DNA from: an uncultured Selenomonadaceae bacterium
GTDB lineage: Bacteria; Bacillota; Negativicutes; Selenomonadales; Selenomonadaceae
DNA length: 7,405 bases
NCBI GenBank assembly: GCA_905236785.1
Contig: CAJOQC010000055.1
Coordinates: forward strand, 1 to 7,405
Reading direction: 5' to 3'
Shown here piece by piece: positions 1-7,125 of the stretch (positions are counted from its first letter, which is position 1; each line of letters begins with the position of its first letter). Made by a program: the position numbers and the translations under genes. The notes below the pieces were generated by a model. The model had not been told where the DNA came from. It saw only the letters and a list, made by a program, of their open reading frames with translations, and ran no database searches.

Positions 1-228
1 AGTGTTGTACCAGCCGTCGCCGGCTTCGATACTCCTTGAGACCTTGCCGTTTATGACAAAAACCATTTGATCTTTCATATCCTGTTCGCTTAGGCGGTCG
101 CCTTCAAAGTAAACGGCAAGTTTGGCGGCGGATTTGCCTTCGCCCAGTCGAGCGCTTTGCAAGATTTGTTGTATAACGCCCTGATCACACTCTTGCAAAA
201 GCGGCAATTTGAACAGATAATCCTGAAG
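1..228 (-). other. Cyclic-nucleotide-binding-like domain (N-terminal half, cut by window edge)
   Basis: This is residues ~488-563 of the partial protein. The pattern of a hydrophobic helix, then LPLL, a polar helix, a short basic and glycine-containing stretch, FEGD, a hydrophobic strand FVI and NGKV matches the first half of the Crp/cNMP-binding beta roll, where PLF, xEGD and xxxGxV are the usual marks. The ligand-contacting Gly-Glu and Arg cassette is not in the window, so cAMP, cGMP or another ligand cannot be judged. Confidence 0.68.
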
Positions 229-1689
229 TTCCCGTATGTCGCTTTGTCTTTGCCCTTGTGCATCGGTCAGTAAATTCTCGATACGAGCGGTAAGCCGCTC
301 GCTGAAGGCATCATAGGGCAGTGTCCAATCGGTGACCATTTGTTGCACGGACACCAAGTATTGATCGGCAAAAAGCGCGATGTCTTTTTCCTCAAAAACA
401 TTCTTGTCATAAAAAAGCGACAAATAAACTTGATTGTCATAGTAGCGAAAATCCATGCTGAGGCAAATATCCTGCGCATCTCGCGACACCTGCGTCACGA
501 TTTTGCCGTCGGGCAACGCCTCGGTTTTTGAATAGGCTTCTTCGCCAACGAAAAAATTGAAAAAATCAAGCACATGATTAAAAGAGCCGCCCTGCTCGGC
601 CAAAAGATCGACAATGCTTTCCTTCCCCGCGTTGGCGTAAGGTTGAGACACCATAAATTGCTTAAACGCCTGCGCCGTAAGGTCTTTAATCGTAGGGTTT
701 CCATCAATCTTCAACCGTATGGGAACGGTGCTTTGACTGCCGCGATCGCCGAAGGAACTTCCCTCGCGTTTTGGCATGGACAGGCAAAACACAACGTCGC
801 GACAATGATTGCTCTCTAACAGCAACATTCCCCAAGCCGTTTGCAACATGGTCATTAAAAGCAACTTGTTGGACTTTGCGTAATCCCGCAAATCGGAAAG
901 AACCGCGCCATGAATACGAGTGACATAAGATGCTTCTTGGGAAAAGCCCGCAACCGTCTTGGGCTTTTCCTTCGCGTTTGGCAACTTGGGCATAGGGCCA
1001 AGGTCGCTTAAAACATCCGTCCAATACTTGCGGACGGATTCGCTTAAACTCTCGGCTGTAAAATTCTCAAAATCCGCCGTCGGCGACGTTTGCCCTTCGT
1101 CTTGGTTTAACTTTAGCGCCTCGCGAAACAAACGGCGAACGTCAAAAGCCTCCACCACGGCGCGAACGGCCGTCACTATCACCGCATATTCTTCGTCCCC
1201 GGTATGCAACACGCAAAAGCGCAATAAATTCCCGGTGCGGGGGTCAAAACCGCGTCGAATTTCGGCATCCATTATCTTTCTGATGGTTTCGTCGATTTCG
1301 TCATCGTCAAGATTTGTAAGGTTGCGGAACATTATTTCGGGGGTATCCCGTCGCGCCTCAAATACAACGGCGAGCATTCTTTTGCCCACGGGGCAAAAAT
1401 TAAGACGCAAAACATCCTCGCGCAAAACCGCCGTATTTACGGCGCGGCTAAAGCGCGGCGGCAACAACGTGCCTTTTATTTTATAAAGCGTCTGTAAGAT
1501 AGATACGCCGGGGCTTAGGGCAATTTTGTAACCGAAACACCCCTTTTCCTGAGCGGTGAGTTCGCGAAAATAGGAAATGCGATTTGTCACATAAGAGTTT
1601 TCCGATTCGCTTTGCGCTCCGTAAAGTTGCTTGATTACACTTTGTTCATCAGCGGGCAACTCGCTGTATTTAAGTTTTGTTATCGTCAT
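1..1689 (-). CDS. Condensation-domain-like protein fused to a cyclic-nucleotide-binding domain (partial, C-terminus off the left edge)
   Basis: The frame is open without a stop from ATG at 1689 to base 1 (563 codons), so the gene is truncated by the window and not by mutation. Residues ~40-450 follow an NRPS condensation domain: LTAQEKG (C1-like, 44-50), LREDVLRLNF (C2-like, 89-98), GFDPRTGNLLRF (147-158), a Tyr-Trp near 222-223 (C4 region), STVPIRL (C5-like, ~319-325) and VLDFFNFF (C7-like, ~373-380). The catalytic C3 motif HHxxxDG is missing; TAVRAVV (173-179) takes its place, so peptide-bond chemistry is doubtful. From ~488 a Crp/PKA-type cyclic-nucleotide-binding fold begins: LPLLQECD (495-502), FEGD (528-531), MVFVINGKV (542-550). 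Its phosphate-binding cassette would lie beyond the edge. No signal peptide or membrane segment is visible. The start is supported by GGAGG 4 bases upstream. It follows yvcK by 88 bases. It could be a regulatory pseudo-enzyme, a CoA-type acyltransferase relative, or the first part of a longer synthetase. The domain calls are fairly firm; the function is unknown. Confidence 0.85.
   Translation of the reverse strand, partial: MTITKLKYSELPADEQSVIKQLYGAQSESENSYVTNRISYFRELTAQEKGCFGYKIALSPGVSILQTLYKIKGTLLPPRFSRAVNTAVLREDVLRLNFCPVGKRMLAVVFEARRDTPEIMFRNLTNLDDDEIDETIRKIMDAEIRRGFDPRTGNLLRFCVLHTGDEEYAVIVTAVRAVVEAFDVRRLFREALKLNQDEGQTSPTADFENFTAESLSESVRKYWTDVLSDLGPMPKLPNAKEKPKTVAGFSQEASYVTRIHGAVLSDLRDYAKSNKLLLMTMLQTAWGMLLLESNHCRDVVFCLSMPKREGSSFGDRGSQSTVPIRLKIDGNPTIKDLTAQAFKQFMVSQPYANAGKESIVDLLAEQGGSFNHVLDFFNFFVGEEAYSKTEALPDGKIVTQVSRDAQDICLSMDFRYYDNQVYLSLFYDKNVFEEKDIALFADQYLVSVQQMVTDWTLPYDAFSERLTARIENLLTDAQGQRQSDIRELQDYLFKLPLLQECDQGVIQQILQSARLGEGKSAAKLAVYFEGDRLSEQDMKDQMVFVINGKVSRSIEAGDGWYNT
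1153..1173 (-). other. Degenerate condensation-domain C3 motif (no HHxxxDG)
   Basis: This is residues 173-179, TAVRAVV, at the point where a condensation domain normally has HHxxxDG. The alignment is anchored by the preceding GFDPRTGNLLRF strand-and-loop and the hydrophobic strand YAVIV, and by the following helix VRRLFREAL. Both histidines, the aspartate and the glycine are absent, and no His-His pair occurs nearby; the closest histidine is H162, in the preceding loop. By family knowledge the second histidine is central to condensation activity. Confidence 0.7.
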
Positions 1690-1693
1690 AAAA

Positions 1694-1710
1694 CCTCCCA
1701 AGGAGAGATA
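1694..1710 (-). promoter_or_regulatory. Ribosome binding site within a small hairpin, for the condensation/CNB gene
   Basis: Read on the minus strand, GGGAGG (1694-1699) sits four bases before the ATG at 1689. Just upstream lies CTCC, separated by TTG, so CTCC-TTG-GGAG can fold and mask the Shine-Dalgarno bases. The short spacing and the possible masking suggest modest or controlled translation; this is inferred from base pairing only. Confidence 0.5.
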
Positions 1711-1777: not shown

Positions 1778-3079
1778 TCACAATCCGGAAAAATGCTCAA
1801 AGGGTATTCCGTTCATTATGCTCTTTGCCAATTTTTCGGGGTCATGGCGAATAAGCTCGTTTTCGTTTATTATGTCGGCTTTTATAAGCCCCAAGCCCAA
1901 CGCGCTTATGGCGTCCTCGTCGATTTCCACCGGATATGCCCCCTCTTTGGCGTAATGCTCAAGCATATCTTCCGACAAAACTTTGGAATTTACCAAAATA
2001 TAGTCGATGATGCCGCGCCCGCCATGATCGATTATGGCCTTGGCGTGCATGGAGGCGGTGTAACCGTCGGTTTCCCCCGGTTGCGTCATTACATTGCAAA
2101 TATAAATTTTTACCGCTTTGCTCTTTATGACTTCCTCCGCCACACCCTCCACCAAAAGGTTTGGCATGACGGATGTGTACAAACTACCCGGCCCCAAGAT
2201 TATCACGTCGGCGGTTCGTATTGCCTCCAAAGCCGATTCCACGGGTTTAACTTCTTGGGGGAAAAGGCGAACTCTTTTAATGCGTTTTTTTGCCTCCGGG
2301 ATATGGGACTCGCCTTCAACGATTGTACCGTCCTCCATTATTGCGTCAAGGCGCACGGACTCGCGGCTTGAGGGTACGACACGCCCTTTAACCGCCAAAA
2401 CTTTGCTCGATTCGTTCAAAGCCTGCTCAATGTCGCCGGTGACTTCCGTCATGGCGGCGATAAAAAGATTGCCGAAACTGTGCCCCGAAAGCGACCCTTT
2501 CCCCGCCGTGAAACGATGTTGAAACAATTTTTCCATAAGCGGCTCGGTATCGGCCAAGGCCACCAAACAGTTGCGTAAATCCCCCGGCGGCACGATGCCC
2601 AAATCCTCCCGCAAACGACCGGAAGAGCCGCCGTCGTCCGCCACGGTCACCACGGCGGTAACATTGCTGGTGGCGGATTTTATGCCTCGCAAAAGGACGC
2701 TTAAACCATGGCCGCCGCCTATTACCGTTATGTTAGGGCCGCCCGCCAAACGCCTTTTTTCGTAGATTAAATCCACCAAGCGTTCGGACTTATTGGGCAA
2801 CAAAATCATGATGAGAGAACGCACCACAAATCGCGTGGCCACGAGCATAAGCACCGTACCCAACACTATTATGAATATGCCCATTGCCGTGGTAACCGTA
2901 TAGTTGTAACTGCCCCAAAAGGTGTAGACGGCACGAAAAATTTCTTCTTCAATCGCGTCCAAATACTTATAGTTAAAAACAAGGGCAAGCCCCAAACTCA
3001 CAAGCATGACCCCGACGGCAAAACAGAACATCCACCGCTTAAAGCCGATACCCGGATAAAGCCATTTCAAAAGATGCAT
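1778..3079 (-). CDS. yvcK: Gluconeogenesis factor YvcK, CofD-like, with N-terminal membrane anchor
   Basis: This 433-residue protein belongs to the YvcK (CofD/UPF0052) family. Members bind UDP-sugars such as UDP-GlcNAc and are needed for growth on gluconeogenic carbon sources and for normal cell-wall synthesis, without a settled enzymatic reaction. The core begins near residue 115: ITVIGGGHGLSVLL (117-130), VADDGGSSGRLR (146-157), GDLRN (166-170), HSFGNLF (200-206), LGPGSLYTSVMPNL (295-308) and TQPGETDGY (332-340), all family hallmarks. Before it are two hydrophobic segments, about 17-36 and 63-92, giving a membrane-anchored form roughly 110 residues longer than the soluble ~317-residue Bacillus protein. 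The start is supported by GGAG seven bases upstream, inside the end of rapZ. It begins two bases after rapZ, so the two are translated from one message. The usual neighbour whiA does not follow; a condensation/CNB gene does. Confidence 0.95.
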   Translation of the reverse strand: MHLLKWLYPGIGFKRWMFCFAVGVMLVSLGLALVFNYKYLDAIEEEIFRAVYTFWGSYNYTVTTAMGIFIIVLGTVLMLVATRFVVRSLIMILLPNKSERLVDLIYEKRRLAGGPNITVIGGGHGLSVLLRGIKSATSNVTAVVTVADDGGSSGRLREDLGIVPPGDLRNCLVALADTEPLMEKLFQHRFTAGKGSLSGHSFGNLFIAAMTEVTGDIEQALNESSKVLAVKGRVVPSSRESVRLDAIMEDGTIVEGESHIPEAKKRIKRVRLFPQEVKPVESALEAIRTADVIILGPGSLYTSVMPNLLVEGVAEEVIKSKAVKIYICNVMTQPGETDGYTASMHAKAIIDHGGRGIIDYILVNSKVLSEDMLEHYAKEGAYPVEIDEDAISALGLGLIKADIINENELIRHDPEKLAKSIMNGIPFEHFSGL

Positions 3080-3081
3080 TG

Positions 3082-4014
3082 TTATTCTCCGTCAACGTGC
3101 TCCCAAACATCGTTTTTCATAAGGTCGCGATGCTCCAATTTTACCTGATGCCCCCGCGCCTTTAATAAATCGTAAAGATGCCGCGCTATAAAAACGCTTC
3201 TGTGCATCCCCCCGGTGCAACCTACGGCAATGACAAGTTGGCTCTTGCCTTCCTTAATATACTGCGGCACAAGGAAATCCACAAGCGCATCAAGCCTTTT
3301 GACAAATTCCTGAGTTACCGGCTTAGAGGCTATATACTCGGCGACTTCCTTAACCTGCCCGCTTTTATGGCGAAGGTCGGGAATGTAAAAGGGGTTGGGA
3401 AGAAAACGCACGTCAAGCACCATATCTGCGTCAAGGGGCATACCGAACTTAAAGCCAAAACTCAAAATATCAATGTTCATCAGCCCGTTGTCGTTGCCGG
3501 CGAATAGTTTGTGTATTTTCTCTTTAAGCTGGACTTTTTTTAACGTGGTGGTGTTAATGATATACGTCGCCTTGTTGCGGACAGGATCGAGCCGCGCCCT
3601 TTCCTTGGCGATGCCGTCGGTGATGCGCGAGTTGGGCGCAAGGGGGTGACGGCGGCGGGTTTCTTTATAACGGCGGATTATGGTTTCATCCGCCGCATCC
3701 ATAAACAACATTTCAAATGGTTGTTCGTTCCTGTCCATGTCCTCAAGGACATGAATAAACTGGTCGAAAAAATCGCGGCTTCTGGTGTCAACCACCAAAA
3801 CCACCTTTGAAACGTGCCCCCCGGAACTTTCGCACAGCTCATGGAATTTCGGAATAAAAATCGGCGGCAGATTATCGACGCAAAAATACCCCAAATCTTC
3901 AAGAACACGACACGCCTCCGTTTTGCCGCCGCCGGACATACCCGTCACTATGACAAAACGCGGTTTCACAGGCTCGACGTTTTTGGCAGAAAGAGCGGTT
4001 TCTTTTTCGTTCAT
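3082..4014 (-). CDS. rapZ: RapZ/YvcJ family nucleotide-binding protein (RNase adapter)
   Basis: This 310-residue P-loop protein is of the RapZ (YvcJ) family. In enterobacteria RapZ guides RNase E to the small RNA GlmZ and so adjusts GlcN6P synthesis; in Firmicutes YvcJ binds and hydrolyses nucleotides and its target is less clear. Walker A is GMSGGGKT (25-32). Further marks are GYFCVDNLPP (42-51), YKETRRRHPL (116-125), DVRFLPNP (201-208) and the C-terminal GCTGGMHRS (265-273). The length is close to the family norm, with roughly 15 extra polar residues at the N-terminus. The ATG overlaps the stop of the upstream HAD gene as ATGA, and GGAGG lies seven bases upstream, so coupled translation is likely. 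It is followed two bases later by yvcK, the classic pairing, consistent with shared control of amino-sugar or envelope precursor metabolism. Confidence 0.95.
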   Translation of the reverse strand: MNEKETALSAKNVEPVKPRFVIVTGMSGGGKTEACRVLEDLGYFCVDNLPPIFIPKFHELCESSGGHVSKVVLVVDTRSRDFFDQFIHVLEDMDRNEQPFEMLFMDAADETIIRRYKETRRRHPLAPNSRITDGIAKERARLDPVRNKATYIINTTTLKKVQLKEKIHKLFAGNDNGLMNIDILSFGFKFGMPLDADMVLDVRFLPNPFYIPDLRHKSGQVKEVAEYIASKPVTQEFVKRLDALVDFLVPQYIKEGKSQLVIAVGCTGGMHRSVFIARHLYDLLKARGHQVKLEHRDLMKNDVWEHVDGE

Positions 4015-4826
4015 TGGTTTTCCTCCGCTGACAGAACATATTTATAAACCGCTGCGGCAAAACCGTCCTTATCGCAACTTTCGGTGATAAAATCACAGGC
4101 CGCCTTCACATGGGGGGCGGCGTTGCCCATGGCAATGCTTTTTCCGGCGGCTTTTAGCATGGGCAAGTCGTTGTCCGAGTCCCCTATGGCCATTACCTCT
4201 TCAATGGGTACGGCAAGTTTTTCCGCCAATATTTTAAGGGCGGCCGCTTTGCTTACGCCGGGGTTTACCGCTTCCGCGTAATTTGCGTTGCTTTTAACTA
4301 TGTTTAGTTTGTCCGCAAAATGCTCCTGTAATTTATTTATGCGGGCGGCTGTTTCCTCCGCGCCCTTGGTGATGAGCAGTAATTTGGTAACGTCCTCGGT
4401 GCGCTCTCTAAGCCCTGCCGCGCCGACTTCGTGTCCTGCTACTTTTTGCGCCGTTTCGTAGCCATGTGATTCTGCGCAACTTTTTGCGTAATAAAGCTCG
4501 TCGCGGCTGTATAACTGAACATACCAATTATTTTTTTTGCAAAAATCAAGGACGCCTAAAACAATATCCGGGGCAAGGCAATTTTTATAAACAACTTCCC
4601 CCGTCACTTTTTTTATCAATGCGCCGTTATAGGTGATAATCGGCACATCAACGGCAAGTTTTTTGGCCACGGGCAAAGCGGCTTTGTACATTCTGCCGGT
4701 GGCTATGGTCACCGTTATTCCCGCCGCGCTCATATCTTGCGCCGCTTTGATGTTTTTTGCCGACACCTCGTCTCCCGTCGGCAAAAGCGTGCCGTCCAAA
4801 TCGGAAACAAAAAGTTTCACCGCCAT
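4011..4826 (-). CDS. Cof-type HAD-IIB family phosphatase
   Basis: This is a 271-residue haloacid-dehalogenase superfamily hydrolase of the Cof/YidA type. These are cytoplasmic, Mg-dependent phosphatases acting on small sugar or cofactor phosphates; the substrate cannot be told from sequence. Motif I is SDLDGTLL, with nucleophile D9 and D11; motif II is IATGR (T43); the motif III lysine is probably K193 in GVSKAAAL; motif IV is IGDSDNDLPML, with D216 and D220. The region between ~85 and ~185 is the C2-type cap that sets specificity. All catalytic residues are present and the length is typical. An AAAGGA site seven bases before the ATG supports the start. It begins one base after the proS stop and overlaps rapZ by four bases, so it is an integral member of the operon, although its link to the neighbours' functions is unknown. 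Confidence 0.92.
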   Translation of the reverse strand: MAVKLFVSDLDGTLLPTGDEVSAKNIKAAQDMSAAGITVTIATGRMYKAALPVAKKLAVDVPIITYNGALIKKVTGEVVYKNCLAPDIVLGVLDFCKKNNWYVQLYSRDELYYAKSCAESHGYETAQKVAGHEVGAAGLRERTEDVTKLLLITKGAEETAARINKLQEHFADKLNIVKSNANYAEAVNPGVSKAAALKILAEKLAVPIEEVMAIGDSDNDLPMLKAAGKSIAMGNAAPHVKAACDFITESCDKDGFAAAVYKYVLSAEENQ

Positions 4827-4827
4827 G

Positions 4828-6540
4828 TCAAAGTCCTTTCAAAATTTCTTTTAGTTCGGTCAAATAATTGTCGGCGGGCAAATTTTTCATTTCGCCGCTC
4901 TTACGGATTTTAATTTCAATTTCGCCCGTTTCTGCGGCTTTGTTGCCCACGGTAACGCGAAGGGGGTAGCCTATTAAATCGCAGTCCTTAAACTTAACGC
5001 CGGCGCGTTCCGGGCGATCGTCAAAGAGTACGTCTATGTTTTCGGCTTTTAACTCTTCGTAAATTTTTTCCGCTATGGCAAATTGTTTTTCGTCCTTTGC
5101 ATTAACCGGCACAACCACAACCTCAAAGGGGGCGATGGCTCGCGGCCAAATAATGCCATGTTCGTCGTTCATCTGCTCTATGGCCGCCTGCATGGTGCGC
5201 CCCACGCCGATGCCGTAGCAGCCCATTTGAAACGGCTTTTCCTTGCCATCCTCGTCCAAAAACTTTGCGCCCAATGCTTCGCTGTATTTTGTCCCCAAGG
5301 AAAAGACTTGCCCCGCCTCAATGCCGCGAGTCATAAACATTTTTTCGCCGCAACGGGGGCAAGGGTCTCCGTCCTGCACCATGCGTATGTCGGTTACAAT
5401 CATGTTTTTGTTCGTAAAATCCCGCGTCGGGTTTACGTTTTTATAGTGATAATCCCGCTCATTTGCGCCGGTCACGGCGTTTTTCATATTCATAACGGCA
5501 CTGTCAACAACGACTGTCGCCTCTTCGTTGATACCTATGGGGCTCATAAAACCCGGCTCGCCGCCTACGGCGCAAATTGCTGTATCTTCGGCCATGATAA
5601 GTTGCAATGCGCCCACAGCGTTTTTGATTTTCGTCTCGTTTGCTTCATGGTCGCCGCGCACGAAGGCCAAAATAACGCGGTCGTTTTCGTCGGCAAAGGC
5701 CACCGCTTTTATGGTCTTGGCGGCGGGAATATGCAAAAATTCCGCCAACAAGTTAATGGTGTGAGTGCCGGGGGTGGGGATTTTTTCCATGGGCAACATT
5801 TCTTCGGTGTCGGCGGCGGGAAGTTTTATCTCCGCTTTTTCGTCGCTGGCGGCGTAGCCGCATTTTGTGCAACAGGCGATGTTGGATTCCCCCGCCGGGG
5901 CAAGCACCGTGAACTCATGGGAATGGCCGCCGCCTATTGCGCCGTTGTCCGCCTCCACCGGGCGAAAGTCCAACCCGCAACGGGTAAACACGTTGCTGTA
6001 GGCATCGTACATTTTTTTGTAGGAAATGTTCATGCCCTCTTCGTCGCGGTCAAAGGAATATAAATCCTTCATTATAAATTCGCGGCTTCGCATAAGCCCG
6101 AAACGGGGGCGGATTTCGTCCCGATATTTGTTTTGAATTTGATAAAGCATTAGCGGCAGTTCTTTATAGGAACGCACTTCGTCCCGCACCAAGGAAGTCA
6201 CCATTTCCTCATGGGTTGGGCCAAGGCAAAATTCGCGGTCATGTCTGTCGGTCACTTTCATCATCTCTGCGCCGTACACGTCCCAACGGCCGCTTTCCTT
6301 CCACAGTTCGGCAGGTTGAATAATCGGCATGGCTATTTCCTGCCCGCCGGCTGCGTCCATTTCTTCGCGGATTATGGTTTCAATCTTGCGGAGCGTTCGC
6401 ACGGCAAGGGGCAAATAGGTGTACACGCCGCCGGCGGCCTTGCGGATAAGACCTGCGCGGAGCATCAGTTTGTGGCTTAAAATTTCCGCTTCCGCCGGAC
6501 TTTGGCGGAGAGTGGGAGCATAAAGAACCGTCGCTTTCAT
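4828..6540 (-). CDS. proS: Prolyl-tRNA synthetase, bacterial type with editing insertion
   Basis: Class II synthetase charging tRNA-Pro with proline in the cytoplasm, 570 residues. Marks are [20 protein letters not shown] (8-27), motif 1 around 38-61, GPTHEE (107-112), motif 2 [20 protein letters not shown] (139-158) and motif 3 [10 protein letters not shown] (440-449). The long insertion between motifs 2 and 3 (about 224-405) is the YbaK-like editing domain that clears mischarged Ala-t[17 protein letters not shown] (294-307) is characteristic. The anticodon-binding domain is ~472-570. Two CxxC pairs (C224/C227 and C394/C397) bracket the insertion and could bind metal. I chose the ATG at 6540: an upstream in-frame ATG at 6549 directly abuts the AAAGGA site, whereas 6540 sits nine bases from it and gives the family-standard MKA start. 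The gap to rubrerythrin is short, and no T-box leader fits in it. Confidence 0.96.
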
Positions 6541-6549
6541 CAAATTCAT

Positions 6550-6576: not shown

Positions 6577-7125
6577 TCAATAATTTGCGGCGTTTACCTC
6601 AAAATAACTTTTGGGGTGAGCGCACACGGGGCAAAGTTCCGGGGCTTTCGTACCCACCACTATATGACCGCAGTTACGGCATTCCCACACTTTAACTTCG
6701 CTCTTTTCAAAAACCTGTTTGGTTTCAACGTTCTTCAAAAGAGCGCGATAACGTTCCTCATGATGTTTTTCGATGGCGGCCACGGCGCGGAATTTGGCGG
6801 CCAAGACGGCAAAACCTTCTTCTTCCGCCGTTTTGGCAAAGCCTTCGTACATATCCGTCCATTCGTAGTTTTCTCCGTCGGCTGCGGCGGCGAGGTTCTC
6901 CGCCGTATCGCCGATGCCGTTTAATTCTTTAAGCCACATTTTGGCGTGTTCTTTTTCGTTGTCGGCGGTTTTTAGAAAGAGGGCGGCAATTTGTTCATAG
7001 CCGTCTTTTTTGGCGCGAGAGGCAAAGTAGGTGTATTTGTTCCGCGCCTGGGATTCGCCGGCAAATGCAGCGGCAAGATTTTTTTCGGTTTTAGTCCCCG
7101 CATAGGGATTTTTCTGATTGGACAT
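6577..7125 (-). CDS. rbr: Rubrerythrin
   Basis: This 182-residue non-haem iron protein reduces hydrogen peroxide in the cytoplasm of anaerobes, taking electrons from rubredoxin or NAD(P)H-linked reductases. A ferritin-like four-helix domain (about 10-135) carries the diiron ligands: E24 in GESQARNKY, the E57-x-x-H60 pair, acidic residues in TAEEEGF (99-105), and E119-x-x-H122. A C-terminal rubredoxin-like domain holds the Fe(Cys)4 site: C149-x-x-C152 and C165-x-x-C168. Length and both sites are typical, so it should be active. The frame stays open further upstream to the right edge, but the ATG at 7125 has AGGAGG seven bases before it and gives the normal family start; the upstream extension lies in the promoter region and is not coding. 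Only 36 bases separate its stop from proS, with no terminator, so it is probably the first gene of the operon and transcribed from the promoter at 7165-7193. Confidence 0.96.

Follow-up and report, generated by a model that had tools for sequence, protein, structure and literature searches.

What might a protein do that joins a nonribosomal peptide synthetase (NRPS) condensation fold to a cyclic-nucleotide-binding (CNB) domain? The question is raised by a gene at one edge of the window, that is, the whole stretch of DNA analysed, which is contig G000:C55 (7405 bases) from draft genome G000 (1.65 Mb, 282 contigs, 79% complete). On the minus strand, 563 codons are open over window positions 1-1689 from an ATG at 1689, and the frame leaves the contig (Table 1). 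The initial annotation had read this frame as a condensation fold joined to a Crp-type CNB fold, and this was confirmed. The condensation profile (PF00668) matched the window protein, and predicted models with fold searches backed both a two-lobe fold of the chloramphenicol acetyltransferase (CAT) kind and a Crp-type beta roll with its C-helix, the fold of CNB domains (PF00027). The CNB part was folded separately, since a fold search with the full model listed condensation domains throughout. The further suggestion of a larger assembly, of which the frame would be the first part, was wrong: the homologue search returned a complete protein of 637 residues (P0001), 100% identical to the window-encoded part, so that the window gene product is without only its last 74 residues. 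No adenylation domain, carrier domain or NRPS partner was found in the condensation-CNB (C-CNB) protein or in the window. Of the genes upstream, we take the CofD-domain gene to be yvcK, and the tRNA synthetase is presumably ProS.

Table 1. Features of the window, with positions as window coordinates.
Feature	Position	Strand	Basis or remark
C-CNB gene, codons 1-563 of 637	1..1689	-	ATG at 1689; 3' end on contig G000:C82 of the same draft genome
Start of Crp-type CNB fold, residues 523-563, with conserved Gly-Trp (residues 559-560)	1..123	-	
Condensation fold, protein residues 63-458	316..1503	-	Pfam PF00668, E 2.2e-28; model and fold search
HHxxxDG site, residues 175-181, reading VRAVVEA; both His and the DG missing	1147..1167	-	Gapless alignment to HHILLDG of bacitracin synthase 3; column counts
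GGGAGG, Shine-Dalgarno-like, before the C-CNB ATG	1694..1699	-	Read in the sequence
YvcK-type protein (CofD domain), upstream of the C-CNB gene	1778..3079	-	PF01933, E 8e-118
RapZ-type protein	3082..4014	-	PF03668 and PF22740
HAD-type hydrolase (Hydrolase_3)	4011..4826	-	PF08282
Class II tRNA synthetase with editing domain (ProS-type)	4828..6549	-	PF00587, PF04073
Rubrerythrin	6577..7125	-	PF02915, PF21349

The window protein has a common fold with NRPS condensation domains (PF00668; bacitracin synthase 3, tyrocidine synthase 2) over residues 30-460, along with several of their motifs, and these gave the best profile matches. It differs from them in having neither HHxxxDG nor an adenylation or carrier domain, and in having a CNB domain behind. 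A profile of 18 family members was aligned to bacitracin synthase 3 with no gap across the catalytic motif. The first His of HHxxxDG was missing from all 154 aligned family sequences, an alignment in which redundancy was left in; the catalytic second His was kept in three, and Gln stood in its place in 110. The three sequences with His at the catalytic column are those of loci L055, L060 and L119, the first two without the Asp of the DG, and a STAS gene adjoins two of the three. Other condensation-domain motifs and the fold itself were retained.

The CNB part is altered as well. The phosphate cassette of CNB domains has the consensus Gly-Glu and Arg, which was also seen in the CNB chains compared. 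The family departs from this cassette: the Gly is Asn in 147 of 147 sequences, and the residue after it is Glu in 78 and Asp in 9 of the 147. An Arg occupied aligned places 584-586 in 20 of 147 and an Arg or Lys lay within 582-587 in 142 of 147; the apparent loss of the cassette Arg is alignment-dependent. The Gly-Trp pair directly before the cassette was conserved (Gly in 149/154, Trp in 148/154). A search for class III nucleotidyl cyclases (PF00211 only) found none in 18 chosen genomes, and the control search was positive in 5 of 14 known genomes.

The first proposal for this gene, an acyl- or peptidyl-transferase under direct control by a ligand, is therefore unsupported, given the His in 3/154, the Asn in 147/147 and the cyclase in 0/18. 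A working transferase gated by a cyclic nucleotide would be in keeping with the retained condensation fold and motifs, and stand-alone condensation domains that make fatty acid amides exist. One of these is OaaC of a gut bacterium, which reads (D/H)HxxxDS (PMC13142362). The window protein resembles OaaC in being a free-standing condensation domain from a gut bacterium; OaaC, in contrast, is catalytically active, and the second His is more than 99% conserved in its stand-alone group (PMC13142362). The terms CNB, cNMP and cyclic nucleotide are absent from the main text of that paper. Because of the near-absent His and the uniform change of cassette Gly to Asn, we regard a ligand-gated transferase as highly unlikely.

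The lost catalytic residues could also mark a decaying NRPS fragment without function. Against this, dN/dS was 0.05-0.31 in 38 of 39 pairs of relatives (one pair undefined), some pairs repeating one genome from two collections, and full-length frames were present in most of the matches listed from a search of 189 genomes. The C-CNB family is under purifying selection. For the family taken together this test rules out decay, the tested pairs being relatives that do not include the window gene, and we find decay barely credible as an explanation.

A dead condensation fold can act as a recruitment platform, as the X-domain of glycopeptide NRPSs illustrates: this domain has a condensation fold with a mutated HHxxxDG (HRxxxDE, first His kept), lies inside the NRPS and recruits P450s instead of making bonds (PMC6565677). 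The likeness lies in the dead fold. The window protein stands alone, outside any NRPS, and a link to STAS goes without mention for the X-domain in the portion of that paper drawn on here (PMC6565677). An identity as an NRPS X-domain was rejected, the C-CNB protein being a stand-alone protein of 637 residues with no P450 among the typed neighbours of its gene.

Of the 189 genomes searched in the window's taxonomic family, 111, from 14 of 30 genera, carry the architecture, a count that takes in divergent paralogues and fragments. Class-wide, 125 of 380 genomes matched, and in the 14 outside the family the matching proteins are NRPSs or more distantly related ones. When 84,980 species genomes were scanned, 115 C-CNB loci were obtained; the best 80 of these were titled Selenomonadaceae, Selenomonadales, Veillonellaceae or genera of these, many from rumen or other gut sites. 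An evenly drawn phylum sample of 398 genomes did yield NRPS condensation domains and Crp-type regulators; among the matches listed from it there was no full-length stand-alone C-CNB protein outside Selenomonadaceae, and no Ruminococcus or Blautia C-CNB protein. Among plasmids, 93 records matched, each over no more than 80% of the query, and the named features were mostly NRPSs in the 15 of 93 matches listed. No description of the C-CNB architecture was found among the literature matches listed (open-licence PMC).

Paralogues were also observed. The window's genome encodes a second, divergent C-CNB protein immediately before hypF (L113:24-1988, contig G000:C53). In another genome (G008), L114:4913-6019 encodes a 369-aa paralogue with the first condensation lobe only and a CNB domain over Pfam's cut-off, and resembling frames of 349-378 aa are present in six other genomes of genus g3. 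C-CNB genes stand as tandem pairs in L050, L068 and L134.

The nearest relatives outside the family are themselves stand-alone C-CNB proteins. In Sporomusa ovata (G298; L135), such a protein with PHxxxDG is encoded between the genes for a carrier protein and a phosphopantetheinyl transferase, downstream of an NRPS. A search with it returned 62 proteins, of which P0020-P0057 align as C-CNB, some named Ruminococcus or Blautia. P0020-P0053 and P0055, which include Sporomusa ovata, Ruminococcus sp. and Blautia sp., form a clade reading PHxxxD(G/A), with the His in 35/35 and the cassette Gly in 32/35; P0054, a partial protein, was left out of these counts. The clade has the two-domain order and the CNB Gly-Trp in common with the window family; it differs in that the His is kept and that the Sporomusa member sits in an NRPS cluster. 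These residues, and the NRPS, carrier and phosphopantetheinyl transferase genes about the Sporomusa member, are the further evidence in favour of a gated transferase, and they raise the question of whether some NRPS-associated condensation domains are regulated by a CNB-like module.

In a tree with only four NRPS domains as the outgroup, all C-CNB proteins formed one clade (support 1.0), which splits into the His-bearing clade (35/35, PHxxxD) and the window-family clade (His in 1/18, that of L119), with support of 1.0 for each. The proteins of L133, L134 and L139, together with P0056 and P0057, read PQxxxD, with the Gly kept in some, and may be regarded as intermediates. An NRPS of 5169 aa (L137:1775-17281, G285) carries a CNB domain (E 2.4e-11) at its end, behind a domain of the thioester-reductase type. 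From the phylogeny we infer that the window family probably descends from an NRPS-associated C-CNB enzyme, that the His was lost, mostly to Gln, and that the protein was recruited into a partner-switching module of RsbU-RsbV-RsbW type. The route from assembly-line enzyme to signalling protein would then be readable in living proteins: an NRPS with a C-terminal CNB domain, His-bearing stand-alone proteins, Gln-bearing ones, and the dead version tied to STAS.

The STAS tie begins in the window's own genome. At one end of contig G000:C82 (3418 bases), on the minus strand, are 60 codons whose product agrees with P0001 residues 578-637 in all but one position (59 of 60). After the stop codon and a gap of 16 bases comes the gene for a 98-aa STAS protein of the linked subfamily. 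P0001 covers the 14 codons that separate contigs C55 and C82. As C82 carries the last 60 residues of the C-CNB protein and then STAS, the STAS gene follows the window gene. Two genes come after it, one of the D-Ala-D-Ala dipeptidase type and one of the L,D-transpeptidase type. In this genome HATPase_c_2 gave two matches, the first barely over Pfam's cut-off (399-aa frame) and the second below it; PPM gave two as well, in frames of 236 and 262 aa. Such doubtful kinase and short phosphatase matches in an incomplete genome count against a complete switch there. The genus's one other genome (G020) gave no STAS match, and its C-CNB gene sits at the end of a contig.

Across the 80 loci, a partner-switch gene lay within 5 kb on the same strand in 25. 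By type, 24 loci had STAS, 14 a SpoIIE-type phosphatase, 11 an RsbW-like kinase and seven an unnamed 207-aa protein, so that STAS, present in 24 of 25 linked loci, is the steadiest neighbour and the kinase is less constant. All 57 partner-switch matches within 5 kb were on the C-CNB strand (680 kb of flank), with one match beyond (293 kb). The neighbour profiles were made from genes of the same 80 loci and the species are related, and the counts are therefore non-independent. The acceptor Ser, which we take from SpoIIAA to be the phosphorylated residue, was kept in all 24 linked STAS rows, and the presumed ATP motifs were kept in 18 of 19 RsbW-like kinase rows; the identities of both motifs are our assumption, and a few rows repeat a genome. 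The STAS protein behind the window gene belongs to a group with this Ser throughout its linked rows. The gene order is RsbW-STAS-SpoIIE-C-CNB in Anaerovibrio, where MatE exporter genes adjoin the module, SpoIIE-RsbW-C-CNB-STAS in S. ruminantium S137 and SpoIIE-STAS-RsbW-C-CNB in genus g22 (L145). The linked phosphatases carry dCache or 5TM sensor domains of their own. No sigma-factor domain was found among the typed neighbours of C-CNB genes.

Some candidate assignments were set aside. A profile that included HAMP and Cache parts was dropped, as it also matched chemotaxis receptors (L003, L011, L135). A gene near the Sporomusa C-CNB gene was rejected as a SpoIIE phosphatase and is a chemotaxis receptor. 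The 207-aa protein (c14) was supported as a second ATPase by neither Pfam nor profile comparison.

The association was also seen genome-wide. With the STAS protein of the window's genome as the query (E 1e-15), the STAS (anti-anti-sigma-like) subfamily was found in 109 of the 189 genomes. When shared ancestry is ignored, 103 genomes had both C-CNB and STAS, eight C-CNB only, six STAS only and 72 neither. In genus g3, nine genomes had both, seven neither and none one alone. Both listings (150 C-CNB and 150 STAS places listed) share 97 genomes; in 28 of these the pair lay within 6 kb, on the same strand in 28/28. In the other 69 the pair was not within 6 kb, four having both genes on one contig farther apart and the remainder on different contigs. 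Three genomes of genus g10 are linked, while most members hold both genes. Unlinked genomes such as G078 and G133 have a STAS-RsbW-SpoIIE row elsewhere.

These data bear on whether the protein belongs to the switch at all. It could instead be a scaffold with no part in partner switching, serving perhaps cell-wall or secondary metabolism, and the STAS link would then be a habit of the lineage. Such a role would suit the 55 of 80 loci without a linked partner-switch gene within 5 kb, some of which are explained by contig ends, as well as the dipeptidase-type and transpeptidase-type genes downstream and the RapZ and YvcK types upstream in the window's own genome, and the amidase that follows the relative in L133. 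The co-occurrence of C-CNB and STAS even where the two are mostly unlinked, as in genus g10 with its three linked genomes, argues against it, as does the single strand of all 57 matches, and we consider it quite unlikely.

The other early suggestion, reuse of the fold by a signalling protein, gains support from the STAS, RsbW-like and SpoIIE-type genes near by and from the STAS gene that follows the window gene after 16 nt. The dead catalytic site, the altered ligand cassette, the selection on the protein and the tie to the STAS switch together point to a predicted binding role; since a phospho-switch gene accompanies it, the C-CNB protein is predicted to be a signalling partner and not an enzyme. 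The explanation we favour, to which we give an even chance, is that the window protein is a non-catalytic client, which the STAS protein encoded 16 nt downstream is predicted to bind or release according to its phosphorylation. We chose it because no other partner gene is as constant as STAS. The eight genomes with C-CNB and no STAS gene of this subfamily, the 69 in which the pair does not lie within 6 kb, the unlinked loci and the three His-bearing sequences count against it. A SpoIIE-type sensor phosphatase would dephosphorylate the STAS protein; the STAS protein or the RsbW-like kinase would then change its partnership with the C-CNB protein, which may relay the signal through the cleft of the condensation fold or the CNB surface.

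The main rival places the C-CNB protein on the input side, where RsbR-type co-antagonists of the switch act. The cleft or the CNB domain would bind a small molecule, an acyl chain or a carrier protein and then tell STAS or the phosphatase to switch, with the output elsewhere. The CNB and condensation folds of relatives both hold ligands, STAS stands ahead of the kinase as the most constant neighbour (24/25 linked loci), and the basic residue near the place of the cassette Arg in 142/147 makes some anion binding possible. Loss of the catalytic site and the cassette Gly speaks against such a sensor, and with the dCache or 5TM sensors of the linked phosphatases a second one would be unneeded; we think this role rather unlikely.

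Comparison with known switches bears on the client role. In the RsbU-RsbV-RsbW-SigB gene order, sigB stands directly behind rsbW (PMC11418112). The C-CNB loci likewise have SpoIIE-type phosphatase, STAS and RsbW-like kinase genes in a row, and in L145 the C-CNB gene occupies the sigB slot; they differ in having no typed sigma-factor domain and in that the proposed client is a pseudo-enzyme. It is a tentative possibility, short of an even chance, that a catalytically dead C-CNB protein replaces the sigma factor in RsbU-RsbV-RsbW-type modules of Selenomonadaceae, as the first NRPS-derived client of a partner switch. In Methanobrevibacter ruminantium, genes for serine phosphatases, an anti-sigma antagonist and a MatE exporter border an NRPS cluster (PMC2812497), suggesting an earlier encounter between switch and NRPS systems. 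The MatE and switch-type genes of this cluster recall the Anaerovibrio and S. ruminantium-type modules; the difference is the full NRPS there (PMC2812497). If the client role is true, common rumen bacteria use partner switching to control something other than transcription, and it is misleading to annotate C-CNB proteins as NRPS parts.

Other genes were observed near C-CNB genes. In S. ruminantium-type loci, a 207-208-aa protein is encoded downstream of STAS (L004:10205-10825, L010:10690-11313), with no Pfam match and, for that of L010, no NCBIfam match. Adjoining the S. ruminantium-type switch module is a gene for a MatE exporter that bears an RsbW-like HATPase domain at its C-terminus (L004:3578-5329, L123:1303-3042). 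As a raw observation, cell-wall enzyme genes (D-Ala-D-Ala dipeptidase-type, L,D-transpeptidase-type, amidase) lie near the C-CNB gene in three loci, G000:C82 (L195), L117 and L133. Flagellin genes adjoin it in two loci (L126:7878-10805, L055:6405-7751).
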